This document shows, in pieces, positions 1-5,539 of a DNA stretch of 22,570 nt. The translations under genes and the position numbers were made by a program. This DNA is from a virus. The notes under the pieces are model-generated. The model searched no databases. It saw only the letters and a program-made list of their open reading frames with translations, and had not been told where the DNA came from. The stretch is from the IMG/VR virus record IMGVR_UViG_3300025132_000336, positions 1-22,570 of that record; one strand, 5' to 3'. Within the stretch, counting starts at the first letter, position 1. The number at the start of each line of letters is the position of its first letter.

Positions 1-4
1 TAAA

Positions 5-232
5 ATGAGCAAAGAAGCAGATCAAATATTAGAACTTTATAATAAACAAGTTTTATCTGTAAAACTACTTAATAAGATTAAAGATTGGTTAAACGAAGAA
101 GTTAAAACAAACAACAAATACACATTTGATGATTACAATGGTTTTGATGATTCAGATGTTTATTTGTTTAGAGGTCGTGCAGAAGTTGCAAGTGGCTTAC
201 TAGAACAAATAAATGAATGGGAGAAGTCATAA
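5..232 (+). CDS. small hypothetical protein (75 aa)
   Basis: A 75-residue, acidic, soluble protein with no signal peptide or membrane segment; I do not recognise the family. It starts just inside the window edge, and the TAA at bases 1-3 may be the stop of an earlier gene in the same operon. Its own stop overlaps the next start (TAATG at 230-234), so the two are probably translationally coupled. The ribosome site lies outside the window, so the start is not proved. The context, a run of short overlapping genes ahead of a DNA methyltransferase, suggests an early or accessory phage gene. Confidence 0.7.
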   Translation: MSKEADQILELYNKQVLSVKLLNKIKDWLNEEVKTNNKYTFDDYNGFDDSDVYLFRGRAEVASGLLEQINEWEKS

Positions 233-417
233 TGAATATTTTTAAAATCAATGTAATTAAAGATTTACAAGAGTTAGGTAAATTAGGAGTAGGATCACCT
301 CACATAATTACCAAAGTTAAAAACGGTGTTTATGATGAAGTCATTAAAGATTTTGAAAATGGCAGTGCTTCTGTAACAGAAACAAGTGACTTTATATTAG
401 AGGGGTTTGCAAAATGA
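232..417 (+). CDS. small hypothetical protein (61 aa)
   Basis: Start placed at the ATG at 232, because GGGAGAAG at 219-226 is a well-placed Shine-Dalgarno site. An in-frame ATG at 217 lies just upstream of that site and would use it as coding sequence. The predicted protein begins MNIFKINVIKDLQEL and has no recognisable motif, membrane segment or cysteine pattern. It overlaps the previous stop (TAATG) and the next start (ATGA at 414-417), as expected in a compact phage operon. Function unknown. Confidence 0.7.
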   Translation: MNIFKINVIKDLQELGKLGVGSPHIITKVKNGVYDEVIKDFENGSASVTETSDFILEGFAK

Positions 418-602
418 GTAGATTATCTGACAAACTACTTGAAGTAGAATTGTTCGTAGGTGAGCAGTTGCAGGACTACACAAACGAGCAGGTGTTAAAG
501 CAAGTCAAGATTAAGTTTGGTGTTGATATGTATGTAGAGCATGCAAAGGATTTGCTTAATGAATTTCAACAAGAACTTAACTTTCAGAGGTTACAGCCAT
601 GA
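414..602 (+). CDS. small hypothetical protein (62 aa), helical
   Basis: The start ATG overlaps the stop of the preceding gene (ATGA), with GAGGGG a few bases upstream as ribosome site. The protein is mostly helical by composition (many Leu, Glu, Gln), with no membrane segment; family not recognised. A half-site of the dispersed palindrome (AATTGTTCG, 448-456) lies inside the coding region and encodes part of ELFVGE. The next gene starts inside its stop codon. Confidence 0.7.
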   Translation: MSRLSDKLLEVELFVGEQLQDYTNEQVLKQVKIKFGVDMYVEHAKDLLNEFQQELNFQRLQP

Positions 603-1009
603 TTTTAGTTAAAAGAATAGATATGGCATTACATATTCAAGAACTATGTGCAGTTGAAAATATATCTGTAAGCTATCAATCGCTTACAGAAACTGTTCCT
701 AAATATTCAGCTATTCCATCTAGGCGACACATAACCATTAGACCGACTAAGAACACGGGCTATTATGTGTCTGCTTTACATGAAATCGGTCATATACTTG
801 GTGGCAATCAATCTCGTAACAACACAACAAAGGAGAAAGAAATTGGTGCATGGATTTGGGCAATGTTACATGCGATTGTATGGACAGATACAGCAGATCG
901 GGTCATGGCTAAAGCATTACGTTCATACGGTATTAGCCAATCTGAAATCGAGGAACTCCAACACAAATGGAATCCAACAACAAGAGATGAGGAGCGAGAA
1001 ATTGCATAA
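599..1009 (+). CDS. HExxH zinc metallopeptidase-like protein
   Basis: A 136-residue protein with ALHEIGHILG at about residues 59-68; H61, E62 and H65 form the HExxH zinc-binding and catalytic motif. A downstream Glu in KEKEIGAW (about residue 81) fits the position of a third ligand. The segment IWAMLHAIVWTDTADRVMAKALRSYGI looks like the helical tail of small phage proteins of this type. Such proteins resemble the minimal metallopeptidase fold of ImmA/IrrE, which cleaves repressors, but there is no fused HTH and no partner repressor next to it, so the substrate is unknown. The start overlaps the previous stop (ATGA). Confidence 0.75.
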   Translation: MILVKRIDMALHIQELCAVENISVSYQSLTETVPKYSAIPSRRHITIRPTKNTGYYVSALHEIGHILGGNQSRNNTTKEKEIGAWIWAMLHAIVWTDTADRVMAKALRSYGISQSEIEELQHKWNPTTRDEEREIA

Positions 1010-1109
1010 TTCTAAATTAATTAGACTACACATTCAAAGGGCTACTCCGTATAGGAGTGGCTTTATGGACAAAATTGTTCGGATATTGGACAAGATAAAA
1101 GAATGGTAA
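987..1109 (+). CDS. possible short overlapping gene (40 aa)
   Basis: This frame opens with ATG at 987 inside the end of the HExxH gene and encodes MRSEKLHNSKLIRLHIQRAT..., a basic 40-residue peptide. An alternative start at 1065 has the better ribosome site (AGGAG at 1053-1057) and would give only MDKIVRILDKIKEW. The TAA at 1107-1109 overlaps the next small gene. The second half contains a palindrome half-site (AATTGTTCGG, 1073-1082). I cannot decide between a real peptide, a leader peptide for the genes behind it, or chance. Confidence 0.35.
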   Translation: MRSEKLHNSKLIRLHIQRATPYRSGFMDKIVRILDKIKEW

Positions 1110-1237
1110 AACGAGCAAAAATTCATAGCACTAGCAGAGGTTGGGAGAAATCTCTTAAAAAATCTGCGAAGGCTAAAGAACGCCAACAGGAAAAGCGAAG
1201 AATTGTTCGGGAAATCAAGGAGGCAAAAAATGGTTAA
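1103..1237 (+). CDS. very basic small protein (44 aa)
   Basis: ATG at 1103 opens a 44-residue reading frame rich in Lys, Arg and Glu (MVKRAKIHSTSRGWEKSLKK...), probably one long helix able to bind nucleic acid. It overlaps the preceding short frame by 7 bases and the next gene by 8, in line with neighbouring genes, and fills what would otherwise be a gap in a dense operon. No strong ribosome site precedes it, so translation would depend on coupling. A palindrome half-site (1201-1210, AATTGTTCGG) encodes IVR near its end. Confidence 0.45.
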   Translation: MVKRAKIHSTSRGWEKSLKKSAKAKERQQEKRRIVREIKEAKNG

Positions 1238-1460
1238 AATGTTTGTTTTAATATGTGTCGTATGGGTAGAAGGCAGTCGCCATGAAGGTGGCGAACAAAA
1301 GTGTATTATGCACCAAAGTCAAGTGCATTATGCAAATATAGATCAATGTCGTGCTGATATACCTAAAAGCGAATTGTTAATTGAAGGTGCTATATTTGAT
1401 AATTTTGGCGAAGAACCAATAGATCATCAAATTATGGCGGGTTGTTTTGAGGGAGCATAA
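1230..1460 (+). CDS. small protein with possible signal or anchor (76 aa)
   Basis: Start chosen at ATG 1230 because a perfect AAGGAGG lies at 1217-1223, six bases upstream; an upstream TTG at 1203 in frame would lack such a site. The product begins MVKMFVLICVVWVEG, a short hydrophobic N-terminus that could be a weak signal or membrane anchor, followed by a region with four more Cys (QKCIM, DQCRAD, AGCFEGA). Another small protein in this window (17445-17648) has a similar short hydrophobic start and paired Cys. Family not recognised. Confidence 0.65.
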   Translation: MVKMFVLICVVWVEGSRHEGGEQKCIMHQSQVHYANIDQCRADIPKSELLIEGAIFDNFGEEPIDHQIMAGCFEGA

Positions 1461-1654
1461 TGATTAGAAGAGAACCAAAGAAGAAGTTTGTTATACATTG
1501 TAAGGAAGTTAAATACTACAATGTTGACATTGAGGCTGATAGCTACGAAGAGGCTGAAAAGAAATGGCAGTCTATAGCTAAAAGGCGTGACTACACAACA
1601 CTACACCAAGAAATTAATGTTATAAGCATAAGTGGAGAAGAAAATGAAACTTAA
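1460..1654 (+). CDS. small hypothetical protein (64 aa)
   Basis: Begins with ATG overlapping the previous stop (TAATG), preceded by GGGAG at 1451-1455. The sequence MIRREPKKKFVIHCKEVKYYNVDIEADSYEEAEKKW is typical of very small phage proteins with one beta-hairpin and a helix (the xVxIEADSYEEA pattern is common in unknown phage and plasmid proteins). No catalytic motif is visible. Its last codons overlap the start of the next gene. Function unknown. Confidence 0.65.
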   Translation: MIRREPKKKFVIHCKEVKYYNVDIEADSYEEAEKKWQSIAKRRDYTTLHQEINVISISGEENET

Positions 1655-1898
1655 AGTTATAGATAAAAAAGAAGATCAGCCAACACTTGAAGAAGCACAA
1701 AAATTTATCGGTGGCTGGATTGAAAGAGTACAATTAAAAAACAATGATATTTTACTTATTGATGAAGAGGGTAAATTAAAAAATCTTGATGTAAATCAAA
1801 AGGCTACAGATCATTGGGTTGAAAGTTATGGCATGACTGACGTTATCGTTGGTGATGCCATTTTAATTAAACGAAGTGCTTTAACGGATTTGTGGTGA
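1644..1898 (+). CDS. DUF3846-like protein (84 aa)
   Basis: The start is ATG 1644, eight bases after GGAG at 1634-1637; an in-frame GTG at 1632 overlaps that site and is less likely. The protein follows the DUF3846 pattern: an N-terminal strand (MKLKVIDKK), then FIGGWIERVQL, then a loop with DEEGKLKNLDVNQKAT, and near the end DVIVGDAILIKR. DUF3846 proteins are small, widespread in phages and plasmids, and of unknown function. The family call rests on pattern recognition of these blocks, not on a search. Confidence 0.6.
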   Translation: MKLKVIDKKEDQPTLEEAQKFIGGWIERVQLKNNDILLIDEEGKLKNLDVNQKATDHWVESYGMTDVIVGDAILIKRSALTDLW

Positions 1899-1903
1899 TT
1901 TTA

Positions 1904-2110
1904 ATGAACGTACAACAATTAATAGAAATATTAGAAAAAATAGACGATAAAACTTTGCCTATAAGAGTAATAGAAGAAAAAGATTATTACGAAAGTGGGG
2001 ATGCAAAGCCAAACTTTTGGTTACACCTTGAAACCGATATTGAACTTAATAATACGGGTCAATCAGGTTATGAGCAATCAGGAGAAGTTAGATTGATAGG
2101 GAGTGAATAA
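1904..2110 (+). CDS. small conserved phage protein (68 aa)
   Basis: The ATG at 1904 follows GGTG with a good spacing; in-frame GTG codons at 1892 and 1895 are alternatives. The protein starts MNVQQLIEILEKIDDKTLPIRVIEEKDY and ends SGYEQSGEVRLIGSE. This arrangement (helix for 'limit or divide a value', then acidic strands, then a GEVRLIG tail) is frequent in unknown phage proteins encoded near DNA-modification genes. No enzymatic motif is visible. It ends directly before the methyltransferase start, so the two are co-transcribed. Confidence 0.6.
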   Translation: MNVQQLIEILEKIDDKTLPIRVIEEKDYYESGDAKPNFWLHLETDIELNNTGQSGYEQSGEVRLIGSE

Positions 2111-3370
2111 ATGATTGATATAAAGATCGGAGATTGTCGGGAAGTGTTGAAAACATTGCCCGATAAGCATTTTCAAACATGTGTGACAAGCCCACCATAT
2201 TACGGATTACGGGATTACGGAACAGCTACTTGGGTAGGTGGATCGGAGAATTGTTCGCATATTGCTGGTACTGCTAGACGAGATGCACACAGAGAATTTG
2301 GAACGGGAGATGTTTTAACTATGCAATATCGTGATGTTTGCGAAAATTGTGGTGCAAAACGAGTGGATTCACAAATCGGACTGGAAGAAACACCCGAACA
2401 ATTTGTCGAGTCGCTGGTCAATGTGTTCCGTGAAGTCAAGCGTGTGCTTAAAGATGACGGAACTCTATGGTTGAATCTAGGCGATAGCTACTCTAGTGGC
2501 AGTAGAACTAGCACAACGAACCAAACTGTTCGGGGTAATACTGATTACGGAGTTACTAGACCACCACCAATTGTTGGTATAAAACCAAAGGATTTAATAG
2601 GAATACCCTGGCGTGTGGCTTTTGCCTTGCAAGCTGACGGTTGGTATTTGAGGCAAGATATAATATGGCACAAGCCTAATCCTATGCCCGAAAGCGTACA
2701 GGATAGATGCACAAAAGCCCATGAATATATATTTCTGCTTAGTAAAAGCCCTCATTATTACTACGATAATGTGGCTATCAAAGAAGAAGCACAGGATTGG
2801 GGAACTCGAGACCGAACAAATGGTAAGTATCATAATGAAGGTACTGGGTTAAATCCACATACTGGTCTTGAAAAGTCATATGAAACAAAAAACAAGCGTA
2901 GCGTATGGACTGTTAACACAAAGCCCTACAAAGAAGCCCATTTTGCCGTGTTTCCTACCGATTTAATCGAACCAGCAATACTGGCTGGATCTAGCGAGAA
3001 GATTTGTTCGGGTTGTGGAACTGCCTACAGGCGTGAAATGGTCACAACTGGCGTTCCCGATAGAATTGTTCGGGATCATATGGTTGGCGTTATACCTAAA
3101 CGAGATAAACCGACTCGTATGAATAGCAAGGATATGCTGTCATTAACGAAGGAAGATAAGGGTTTTGTTAAGCAATGTGACTGCGATACCAGTGAAACCG
3201 AACAAGATCGGGTATTAGACCCGTTTGGTGGATCGGGAACTACTGGACTGGTAGCTGATCGTCTTGGGCGTAATGCAACTGTTATAGAACTTAATAACGA
3301 ATATGTAGAAATAGCTAAAAACAGACTGGAAGGCGACTCCCCGCTGTTTTCAAAAGTGGAGGTGAGCTAA
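2111..3370 (+). CDS. DNA methyltransferase (N4-cytosine or N6-adenine, beta order)
   Basis: A 419-residue enzyme that transfers a methyl group from S-adenosylmethionine to an exocyclic amino group in DNA. The catalytic motif TSPPYYGLRDYG lies at about residues 26-37 and the cofactor-binding motif DPFGGSGTTG at about 370-379, so catalytic motif before cofactor motif (beta order). SPPY is seen in both N4C and N6A enzymes, so the modified base is open. Two Cys clusters (CENCGAKR near 77-84 and CSGCGTAYRRE near 298-308) may each be zinc knuckles. Ribosome site GGGAGTG just upstream. No restriction endonuclease is next to it, so it acts as an orphan enzyme, possibly for protection of phage DNA. 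Seven half-sites of the palindrome, some degenerate, lie in the gene. Confidence 0.9.
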   Translation: MIDIKIGDCREVLKTLPDKHFQTCVTSPPYYGLRDYGTATWVGGSENCSHIAGTARRDAHREFGTGDVLTMQYRDVCENCGAKRVDSQIGLEETPEQFVESLVNVFREVKRVLKDDGTLWLNLGDSYSSGSRTSTTNQTVRGNTDYGVTRPPPIVGIKPKDLIGIPWRVAFALQADGWYLRQDIIWHKPNPMPESVQDRCTKAHEYIFLLSKSPHYYYDNVAIKEEAQDWGTRDRTNGKYHNEGTGLNPHTGLEKSYETKNKRSVWTVNTKPYKEAHFAVFPTDLIEPAILAGSSEKICSGCGTAYRREMVTTGVPDRIVRDHMVGVIPKRDKPTRMNSKDMLSLTKEDKGFVKQCDCDTSETEQDRVLDPFGGSGTTGLVADRLGRNATVIELNNEYVEIAKNRLEGDSPLFSKVEVS

Positions 3371-3666
3371 TGGCTAAAAAGAAACAGAAGAATTGTTCGC
3401 AATGTAAAGAAAAGATTGTCGCTGGCATGGAACTGGTGATGAATAACCGAACAATTTGTCTTGGTTGCGCTGTTGAGAAAGGAATAGCACAGCAATGGCA
3501 AGCACCAATAAGTCATGTTCTTCATTGTGAATATGATGTTTATTCCTGTCCAGAATGCTACAGGAATTACACCGAAATGATGGAGCATCTGGGGTATGTT
3601 TGTACCAAACAAGGTACGTTCTATAAGCCTACAAATGACCCCAAAATTGTGGTGCTTTATGAGTGA
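3370..3666 (+). CDS. Cys-rich zinc-ribbon-like protein (98 aa)
   Basis: Starts at ATG 3370 in overlap with the methyltransferase stop and behind a strong GGAGGTGA site, so it is almost surely expressed with it. Cys pairs CSQC (residues 9-12), CLGC (near 31-34) and CPEC (near 60-63), plus single Cys, suggest one or two zinc ribbons. The phrase NNRTICLGCAVEKG recalls the PARP-type or RING-like zinc knuckle in small phage proteins. A role in nucleic-acid or methyltransferase binding is a guess from position. Two palindrome half-sites (3391-3399, 3447-3457) encode NCS and RTI inside the metal-binding loops. Confidence 0.7.
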   Translation: MAKKKQKNCSQCKEKIVAGMELVMNNRTICLGCAVEKGIAQQWQAPISHVLHCEYDVYSCPECYRNYTEMMEHLGYVCTKQGTFYKPTNDPKIVVLYE

Positions 3667-3920
3667 TTTACTTACCACTTACCAACTTACTCGGTAAGTA
3701 AAAATGACGGTAAGTAGTAAGTCATTGAAATTGTTCGGGTTTTTGAAGCAACTTACGGAGGTTACTTCTTATCACGGTAAGTTAGAATTTAGCTTTAAGT
3801 CATTGATTTTAAAGCTACTTACCAACTTACCGAACTTCCCCCCTAAAGGGGGGTTTAGGGGTCGGTAAGTAAACCGACCACCTAACCTATTAACTGGTAA
3901 CGAAATGGAGATAAAATAAG
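3667..3920 (+). repeat. GGTAAGT/ACTTACC repeat and hairpin block upstream of terS
   Basis: This non-coding block holds four exact GGTAAGT (3693, 3709, 3776, 3864) and four exact ACTTACC (3670, 3677, 3817, 3825), with degenerate copies at 3685 and 3751. They form nested hairpins: ACTTAC-TCG-GTAAGT at 3685-3699; AGCTTTAA paired with TTAAAGCT at 3791-3798 / 3809-3816; and a 9-bp arm ACTTACCGA / TCGGTAAGT (3825-3833 / 3862-3870) enclosing a second stem CCCCCC-TAAA-GGGGGG (3838-3853). An 11-bp direct repeat TAAGTCATTGA occurs at 3718 and 3796, and a palindrome half-site at 3729-3739. The position next to the small-terminase gene suits a packaging (pac or cos) site bound by TerS; a replication origin is the other option. 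Confidence 0.75.
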
Positions 3921-4448
3921 ATGCCAAAAGTAGCAGAGAATTTAACGAAGGAACAGCGACTCGCTGGGTGGAAAAGATTGACTGATAAACAGCAAGACTT
4001 TCTGAATAACTTTATGCACAAGGATATGACGCAAACACAGTCGGCTAGACAAGCAGGATATTCTAATCCTGGCGTTGATGCTGTTAGGCTGTTGCGTAAT
4101 CCAGTCGTTCAGGAACGCTATCAGGAAATGCGTGAGGAAGCCCGTAGTCGGTTCGGGGTAACAATTGATAAGTCTGTTCGGGATTTGCTGAAGATTCGTA
4201 ACGAAGCGTGGGAATCGGGGAAATTTGGTGAGGCTATTCGGGCTGAAGAACTGCGTTTAAAGGCTACTGGATTATTGGTTAACAAGGCTCATGTGCTACA
4301 TGAACGCACAGACAGTATGACAAGGGAAGAAATACTGGCAAAACTACAGGAATTTCAAGACATAGCACAGAAACGCATGAAAACAGCCATAAAGACCCAT
4401 AACGACCCAGACTTGATAGAGCAAAATAGCGTGAAAACCAAAAACTAG
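3921..4448 (+). CDS. terS: terminase small subunit (TerS)
   Basis: A 175-residue protein whose first half matches the Terminase_2-type DNA-binding domain: LTDKQQDFLNNFMHKDMTQTQSARQAGYSNP (residues 21-50), followed by AVRLLRNPVVQERYQEM. In this family the helix-turn-helix recognises the packaging site, and the protein oligomerises to load TerL on DNA. The second half is helical and charged, as expected for the oligomerisation part. Ribosome site GGAG at 3907-3910. It is about 7.1 kb from TerL, which is unusual since the two are often adjacent. Half-site-like TGTTCGGG at 4175-4182 lies in the gene. Confidence 0.85.
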   Translation: MPKVAENLTKEQRLAGWKRLTDKQQDFLNNFMHKDMTQTQSARQAGYSNPGVDAVRLLRNPVVQERYQEMREEARSRFGVTIDKSVRDLLKIRNEAWESGKFGEAIRAEELRLKATGLLVNKAHVLHERTDSMTREEILAKLQEFQDIAQKRMKTAIKTHNDPDLIEQNSVKTKN

Positions 4449-4518
4449 CATATTTACTTGGAGGGGGTACTCTTGGGTTCTCCCGAACAATTCCTGTACG
4501 CATAGGGATCGGGGTATA

Positions 4519-4580
4519 ATCGGGCTTATTATCGGGCTTATTATAGGGCTTTGATCGGGATCGGGCTTGTTATCGGGGTC
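4519..4580 (+). repeat. degenerate 12-bp tandem repeat (ATCGGGCTTATT)
   Basis: Units: ATCGGGCTTATT (4519), ATCGGGCTTATT (4531), ATAGGGCTTTG (4543), ATCGGG (4554, truncated), ATCGGGCTTGTT (4560), ATCGGGGTC (4572). It lies directly behind terS and ahead of the first palindrome of the cassette region. ATCGGG is also repeated after the third cassette (6630-6667). Confidence 0.75.
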
Positions 4581-4635
4581 ATTCTTTGGCAAATTGTTCG
4601 GGTTAGGATCGGGGTCCTCCTGCCTCCAGCAACCC

Positions 4636-4647
4636 GAACAATTGTTC
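4636..4647. repeat. palindrome GAACAATTGTTC, copy 1
   Basis: Exact 12-bp palindrome, flanked as CCC-palindrome-CC. It sits left of the CCAGCAGG / CCTGCTGG inverted repeat. Copies 1 and 2 thus bracket that stem. Confidence 0.9.
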
Positions 4648-4661
4648 CCTGTGGATAGATC

Positions 4662-4690
4662 CCAGCAGGTGTACCTGTCCTTCCTGCTGG
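4662..4690 (+). repeat. inverted repeat CCAGCAGG / CCTGCTGG
   Basis: Perfect 8-bp arms (4662-4669 and 4683-4690) with a 13-base loop, bracketed by palindrome copies 1 and 2. The same CCTGCTGG or CCAGCAGG octamer recurs at 5421-5428 and in the terminator at 5743-5750, always beside a palindrome copy. No T-run follows here, so it is not a clear terminator. Confidence 0.6.
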
Positions 4691-4696
4691 AAAACC

Positions 4697-4708
4697 GAAC
4701 AATTGTTC
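4697..4708. repeat. palindrome GAACAATTGTTC, copy 2
   Basis: Exact copy preceded by CC (CCGAACAATTGTTC). It lies 88 bases ahead of the first cassette promoter. Confidence 0.9.
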
Positions 4709-4795
4709 TAACCTTCACGGGCTGGATCTGGTACGGCTGGATCTGCTAATTTATGTCATATGATATATTTTTTTTATTTTTTTTTAATTTAGTTG

Positions 4796-4824
4796 TTGAC
4801 AAGGTAGCAATCATTACATATATT
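4796..4824 (+). promoter_or_regulatory. promoter P1 with GCAATCATTAC operator-like dyad
   Basis: TTGACA (4796-4801), 17-base spacer, TATATT (4819-4824): a near-consensus sigma-70 promoter. The dyad GCAATCATTAC (4807-4817) fills the spacer. It is the reverse complement of the element in P2 and P3. A T-rich tract lies upstream. It drives the genes at 4856 and 5221. Confidence 0.8.
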
Positions 4825-4855
4825 AGTATTAATTAAACAGCCAATGGAGAAAAAA

Positions 4856-5209
4856 ATGATAGTACAAACAGTAAATGAAAACCAATTCATAGACGCTTTT
4901 AGAACTTGGGATACATACAAGAATAATTTTTCTTATGAAGGACTTAGAGCGTTATATGAATATTTGGAAGAAGTTGCGGAGTGTATGGATAGCGGGCAGG
5001 TTGAACTTGATGTTGTAGCAATTTGCTGTGACTACACCGAGTTTGAAAACTTGAAAGACTTTCAAGAACAATACGGAAAACAATATAACCAAGTATTAGG
5101 AGGAGAAAAAGATTGTCTTGATTATTACACTTCTGTCATTCTTCCTGATTGTTGGCAAGGTAAGGAAGACAACGAAAAAGATTTACCATTCATAATTAGA
5201 CAATTTTAA
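4856..5209 (+). CDS. acidic conserved phage protein (117 aa)
   Basis: First gene of the first cassette. An ATG at 4844 in frame is inside the ribosome site AATGGAGAA, so the start is ATG 4856; the other cassettes show the same leader with the start just after it. The protein begins MIVQTVNENQFIDAFRTWDTYKNNFSYEGLRALYEYLEE and contains ELDVVAICCDYTEFEN. I recognise this FSYEGL...YEYLEE...DVxAxCCDxTEY layout as a family common in phages and plasmids, of unknown function, acidic and soluble. Acidic, DNA-like size and moron position would suit an inhibitor of a host defence protein, but nothing in the sequence proves it. Confidence 0.75.
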   Translation: MIVQTVNENQFIDAFRTWDTYKNNFSYEGLRALYEYLEEVAECMDSGQVELDVVAICCDYTEFENLKDFQEQYGKQYNQVLGGEKDCLDYYTSVILPDCWQGKEDNEKDLPFIIRQF

Positions 5210-5220
5210 CGGGGGTTATC

Positions 5221-5298
5221 ATGTTATTTTATACAATCTTCTTAAATGTAATAGCATTCGCACTATTTACCGCAACAGTCTTGCTCTTTCTTTTGTAA
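5221..5298 (+). CDS. 25-residue single-pass membrane peptide
   Basis: ATG at 5221 opens MLFYTIFLNVIAFALFTATVLLFLL, ending in TAA at 5296-5298. It is almost entirely hydrophobic, as long as one membrane helix, and begins 11 bases behind the stop of the previous gene with GGGGGTT ahead as a possible ribosome site. A terminator follows at once (5315-5340). Very small membrane peptides are common in phages, but a frame this short could be chance; the hydrophobic composition and position inside the transcription unit are the support. A palindrome half-site begins at its stop codon (5298). Confidence 0.5.
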   Translation: MLFYTIFLNVIAFALFTATVLLFLL

Positions 5299-5314
5299 AT
5301 TGTTCGGGGATCGG

Positions 5315-5340
5315 ATCGGGGGTTCTTCCCCCGATTTTTT
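5315..5340 (+). terminator. rho-independent terminator T1
   Basis: Perfect stem ATCGGGGG / CCCCCGAT with loop TTCTT (5315-5335), followed by a run of five more T. It ends the first cassette and lies 12 bases before palindrome copy 3. Confidence 0.85.
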
Positions 5341-5352
5341 CCTGTAGATACC

Positions 5353-5364
5353 GAACAATTGTTC
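5353..5364. repeat. palindrome GAACAATTGTTC, copy 3
   Basis: Exact copy in the context CCTGTAGATACC-palindrome-CC, directly behind terminator T1. A C-rich tract follows. CCTGTA or its complement TACAGG stands just left of copies 3, 4, 5 and 6, so the repeated unit may be longer than 12 bp. Confidence 0.9.
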
Positions 5365-5400
5365 CCTCCCCTCCCCCCTCCTGCTTCCAGACCTGTAACC

Positions 5401-5412
5401 GAACAATTGTTC
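5401..5412. repeat. palindrome GAACAATTGTTC, copy 4
   Basis: Exact copy, CC on the left and GC on the right, 36 bases after copy 3. It is followed by CCTGCTGG (5421-5428) and a small stem TTCAGG / CCTGAA (about 5429-5450). Confidence 0.9.
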
Positions 5413-5478
5413 GCTTCTGTCCTGCTGGTTCAGGGAATCCTGTTCCTGAAAAAAAATAAAAAAAAGTTTATTTTATTG

Positions 5479-5507
5479 TTGACAGGTGTTGTAATGATTG
5501 CTATATA
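5479..5507 (+). promoter_or_regulatory. promoter P2 with GTAATGATTGC dyad
   Basis: TTGACA (5479-5484), 17-base spacer, TATATA (5502-5507). GTAATGATTGC is at 5491-5501, ending right at the -10. The A-tract with GTTTATTT upstream (about 5450-5475) is repeated before P3, so the two promoter blocks are clearly related by copying. Confidence 0.8.
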
Positions 5508-5539
5508 TAATATATTAATTAACCAAAGGAGAAACAAAA

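Follow-up and report, generated by a model that had tools for sequence, protein, structure and literature searches.

The 22,570-base window analysed here, an IMG/VR virus contig (IMGVR_UViG_3300025132_000336), carries just upstream of its small terminase gene (terS) a block of short repeats, or iterons, built on the word GGTAAGT/ACTTACC. This block is very probably a replication origin of a marine phage, with the iterons bound by the phage's own primase-helicase. The reading draws on an array whose word tracks the primase-helicase and which also holds IHF consensus sites and a hairpin; one clade adds an adjacent AT run. In the proposed mechanism, the primase-helicase would bind the iterons via its C-terminal winged helix, IHF would introduce bends between the groups of iterons, and replication would start with loading of the bound helicase at the hairpin or AT-rich stretch next to them. 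Physical binding of the array, binding of IHF and the firing of replication through binding are what we infer from these computed patterns. Of the features by which an iteron origin is recognized, several copies of a short word lie here in one intergenic block, IHF sites are present as consensus matches, and a probable cognate initiator in the same genome is indicated by co-variation. The first-pass annotation had put the block forward as a packaging site or an origin; the origin idea gained support, since a change of word is accompanied by a change in the primase-helicase's recognition helix.

The word occurs in eight exact copies, four per orientation, within 201 bp (3670-3870). The earlier count of eight exact and at least two near copies in about 200 bp therefore holds, and three near copies could be located. 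In 60 second-order Markov (Markov-2) simulations with matching base composition, no 7-mer exceeded four copies per 210 bp. The window as a whole contains 12 copies of the word, against a mean of 2.2 in shuffled sequences.

The iteron word switches together with the primase-helicase

The same array geometry lies upstream of terS in about 140 related phage loci. Among 80 terS relatives from viral contigs, nearly all have the array in this position, and its word order and spacing are kept. A pattern search independent of terS recovered further contigs, in which true family arrays adjoin terS wherever the contig extends that far; in some phages, a small open reading frame (ORF) lies between the two.

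Within a fixed geometry, arrays of two sister clades change their word concertedly along their whole length, which points to a common trans-acting reader. One such locus (L301; TerS 65% identical) has the same layout with the word ACTGTCA, and a search starting from it returned 68 loci with many words, mostly one word per array, in 5-11 exact copies at corresponding positions. The words are ACTTACC, ACTGTCA, ACTTGCA, ACTTTCA, ACTTACA, ACTTTGG, GGTTAGCA, GGTTGCA, GGTTTGG, GGTGTCA, GGTATCA and AGTATCA. A third clade also has arrays, with words including ACTTACC, GTTACAT, AGGTTACC and ACTTACA. A few arrays (L333, L319) are two-word mosaics and may be word-switching intermediates. In all three clades the array adjoins terS (window 3667-4448), and the genes between primase and terL are otherwise variable.

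The primase-helicase (about 726 amino acids) comprises a Toprim-like region, an RSF1010-RepA-like helicase and a predicted C-terminal winged helix. Pfam gave AAA_25 and weak Toprim matches, and homology to the RepA helicase core was found in a PDB sequence match to RSF1010 RepA (E 1.6e-7, profile positions 332-549). Two AlphaFold models of moderate confidence (mean predicted local distance difference test score, pLDDT, 74 and 72) give the C-terminal domain as helix-helix-helix-strand-strand, i.e., three helices and a two-strand wing; the variable residues precede helix 2 and open helix 3. Among annotated full-length proteins, the closest are those of Wolbachia phage WO, about 38% identical, one of them described as similar to RSF1010 RepA; beside the homologous WO gene (38% identity), no comparable repeat array was found.

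L377 and L378, which carry the word GGTTAGCA, and L385, which carries GGTTGCA, are near-identical over most of their shared upstream region. The primase-helicases of L378 and L385 are 99.2% identical, and all six differences in 735 aligned residues fall in the recognition region (p 3e-9). At six positions, all in alignment columns 735-744, L377 agrees with L378 but not with L385. In the models, the ten-residue stretch that holds the six L378/L385 differences forms the recognition helix within the C-terminal winged helix.

Across 12 words, the two halves of the word follow two sites in the protein. Position 650 in L195 protein numbering (in the motif AL-C/T-Q-X-G/S/T-G), located before helix 2, is Q or M with words starting AC and R or K with words starting GG or AG. 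The second half is matched by the recognition helix, in the residues with which the last helix begins: S/TQRxxDG pairs with TTACC, SQHQMDR with TTGCA, SQPQ[ML]DR with TTACA, GESSIGR with TTTCA, QSTIDR with TGTCA, SQATIDRY with TATCA, GQWT[IV]DQ with TTTGG and QYxADQ with TTAGCA. The halves recombine, with SQHQMDR found in ACTTGCA and GGTTGCA phages, QSTIDR in ACTGTCA and GGTGTCA phages, and GQWT in ACTTTGG and GGTTTGG phages; such free combination provides independent replicates of the rule. Three phages found after the rule had been noted (L416, L407 and L325) fit it. When the ACTTACC clade was set aside, leaving 15 phages, the windows of the protein that correlated best with the word after correction for overall similarity were residues 670-684 and ~650. 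For pairs with 78-99.5% identity, the recognition region held 2.3 times as many differences as expected if the words differ and 1.08 times as many if they are the same, in a comparison whose region was picked after viewing the alignment and whose pairs are non-independent.

Layout of the block

The features are as follows (exact copies unless stated; no strand is given for symmetrical or composite features).

3667-3890: iteron array with hairpin, the proposed replication origin, from repeats and conservation in relatives
3670-3676, minus strand: iteron ACTTACC (GGTAAGT on the minus strand)
3677-3683, minus strand: iteron
3685-3691, minus strand: near copy ACTTACT
3693-3699, plus strand: iteron GGTAAGT
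3709-3715, plus strand: iteron
3716-3722, plus strand: near copy AGTAAGT
3751-3757, minus strand: near copy ACTTACG
3776-3782, plus strand: iteron
3796-3808, minus strand: exact match to the IHF consensus AATCAATGACTTA, recurring in relatives' arrays
3817-3823, minus strand: iteron
3825-3831, minus strand: iteron
3838-3853: palindrome CCCCCCTAAAGGGGGG, present throughout the ACTTACC clade
3852-3887: hairpin conserved in relatives, iteron at the tip, stem variable with pairing kept
3864-3870, plus strand: iteron inside the hairpin tip
3921-4448, plus strand: terS, a constant neighbour and not the specificity factor of the array

Three hairpins had been proposed in the block. All of the inverted repeats exist (3667-3676/3693-3702, 3775-3798/3809-3832 and 3852-3866/3873-3887), but only that at 3852-3887 is conserved as a hairpin across relatives; for 3775-3832, the words are kept in relatives and the inner pairing is not. 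In the conserved 3' hairpin, the word stays at the tip and the stem varies in sequence yet remains paired, as in the clade 2 stems GGGGAC/GTCCCC, GGGCAC/GTGCCC, GGGAAC/GTTCCC and GGCTACT/AGTAGCC. Its conservation was assessed by single-sequence folding against shuffles (mean z of -3.6 for clade 2 and of -2.1 for the clade to which the window belongs); pair counting on MAFFT alignments of the hairpin was dropped because the alignments were out of structural register.

Of 136 arrays, 94 hold exact matches to the IHF consensus, 114 sites in all against 3.8 expected, although the arrays are related and the counts thus non-independent. Clade 2 also has an AT run, TATATATATATATATG, beside the last iterons, and the window's clade has nothing so clear. 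The ORF that starts at 3921, directly after the block as first described, is indeed a small terminase (PF03592, E 2e-10; phrog_51, E 4e-16). The window showed no exact end repeats and no Rfam match at the gathering threshold.

Candidate readers and competing explanations

Candidate readers of the word were sought by comparing, in 54 contigs, the ortholog groups encoded between 16 kb upstream and 9 kb downstream of terS. Full-length TerS is 100% identical between phages with different words in several sets (L310 versus L311/L391; L329 versus L376; L321 and L374 versus L397; L333 versus L385), so TerS cannot set the word and was ruled out as its reader. A 400-amino-acid protein was also rejected. 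The helix-turn-helix (HTH) protein encoded at 8629-9015 was excluded too, since HTH proteins just 26% identical share one word while 97%-identical ones go with different words. The same comparison bears on the idea that the block is an operator through which this HTH protein controls terS and the late genes. The block does lie in the terS 5' region, and a weak sigma-70-like match overlaps 3890-3917, but promoter-like matches are at chance level and we regard this explanation as extremely improbable.

A packaging initiation site (pac or cosB-like) with TerS-bound repeats would fit the constant position just upstream of terS in this phage family. IHF and TerS sites co-occur at lambda cosB, and in Pelagibacter phage HTVC023P a ACTAGGAAAA repeat array (L192:11678-11775) precedes an unrelated terS by about 100 bp. 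The word nevertheless differs while TerS is identical residue for residue, and it tracks the primase-helicase instead. In the contig data, ends show no concentration at the block and the long contigs close on themselves elsewhere, which gives no sign of a fixed terminus. The packaging idea of the first-pass annotation thus found no support and is very unlikely, although TerS may still use the hairpin or the flanks for packaging. Another explanation keeps the primase-helicase as the binding protein but assigns the array to copy control or incompatibility, as at P4 crr, or to secondary helicase loading, with initiation elsewhere. P4 alpha binds both ori and crr, and the array here lies kilobases away from the primase gene. 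However, each long contig has only one such array, and the combination of clustered words, IHF sites and hairpin, joined in one clade by the AT run, resembles a complete iteron origin; we consider this alternative very unlikely.

Several observations weigh against a replication origin read by the primase-helicase. GC skew, proposed earlier as a check, was uninformative because the genes lie nearly all on one strand, and it lends the origin no support. The third clade has a different helix type, which makes the recognition rule clade-bound. Adding the ACTTACC clade to the word correlation moves other parts of the protein to the top, which we read as phylogenetic confounding. Fold searches with the C-terminal domain were unspecific, matching many winged helices with no distinct best match; the P4 alpha origin-binding domain was absent among the fold matches, which proves nothing. 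The primase-helicase gene lies outside the window; a contig 99.8% identical to window positions 1-6159 (L160) extends upstream and encodes the protein about 6.5 kb before the block, with an ACTTACC-type helix. Finally, L320 breaks the rule: its array uses ACTTGCA, but its helix is of the GGTTAGCA type. This mismatch may be natural, a recent recombinant or an assembly chimera.

Related systems and other repeats

Among annotated phages, neither a nucleotide search with the block nor a protein search with TerS gave a match. A scan of bacterial genomes returned only two close relatives, both in metagenome-assembled genomes, and the array was found in neither; among the papers searched, none described it.

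The P4 alpha protein reads its iterons by a C-terminal winged helix and combines a superfamily 3 (SF3) helicase with an archaeo-eukaryotic primase (AEP)-type primase. The present phages differ in having a helicase that matches RSF1010 RepA and a Toprim-like primase part, rather than SF3 and AEP, and in the many words known in the family. RSF1010 uses separate proteins to bind its iterons (RepC) and to prime (RepB), whereas we propose that both functions are fused in one protein here. The helicase domain is homologous in the two systems (RepA structure 1g8y). Together with the two systems described next, the P4 alpha protein with its ori and crr iterons comes nearest in mechanism (Ziegelin et al. 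1993, cited in PMC8628076). In the Staphylococcus aureus pathogenicity island (SaPI) Rep and staphylococcal cassette chromosome mec (SCCmec) Cch2 proteins, the C-terminal domain of an initiator helicase likewise reads short origin repeats; there the origin is directly downstream of the helicase gene, whereas the proposed origin here is kilobases off, beside terS, and the helicase families differ (PMC7581432). RepA and ori of the phage-inducible chromosomal island-like elements (PLE), Vibrio cholerae satellites, offer a precedent, as origin and initiator DNA-binding domain co-vary there and were swapped repeatedly as modules, a pattern linked in PLE to an origin-directed nuclease that exploits the origin (PMC8263062). 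PLE have a RepA_N-type initiator and three ~30-bp iterons in few variants, as opposed to a fused primase-helicase, 5-11 seven-base words per array and at least 12 words in the present family (PMC8263062 for PLE). Helicase type, origin location and word number set this family apart from P4 alpha, SaPI and PLE.

The switching poses the question of why the origin word keeps changing in a phage lineage while the terminase, the flanks and the remaining primase-helicase stay constant. We tentatively suggest, as a possibility we hold at somewhat short of even, that a widespread marine phage group has kept one origin architecture and repeatedly rewritten its word with a two-part winged-helix code, giving at least a dozen presumably orthogonal origins, and that this diversification was probably driven by antagonists or competitors exploiting the origin. 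Satellites, origin-directed nucleases and co-infecting phages are candidate drivers. With the origin reading, an unannotated repeat block becomes a testable initiator-origin pair, and at least 12 natural matched pairs could reveal which winged-helix residue chooses which bases.

Two further kinds of repeat were seen. The window contains 17 copies of the word AATTGTTCGG and seven of the palindrome GAACAATTGTTC, mainly at 1073-6612 with a few to 22178; they lie inside and between genes, like cyanobacterial highly iterated palindrome 1 (HIP1), and occur in relatives too. In an unrelated phage (39,116 bp with a 121-bp exact end repeat), nine GGTAAGT/ACTTACC copies, in a search that preselected the word, lie at L184:5361-5623, directly after a gene for a 744-amino-acid BT4734-like_N protein and far from the terminase genes.
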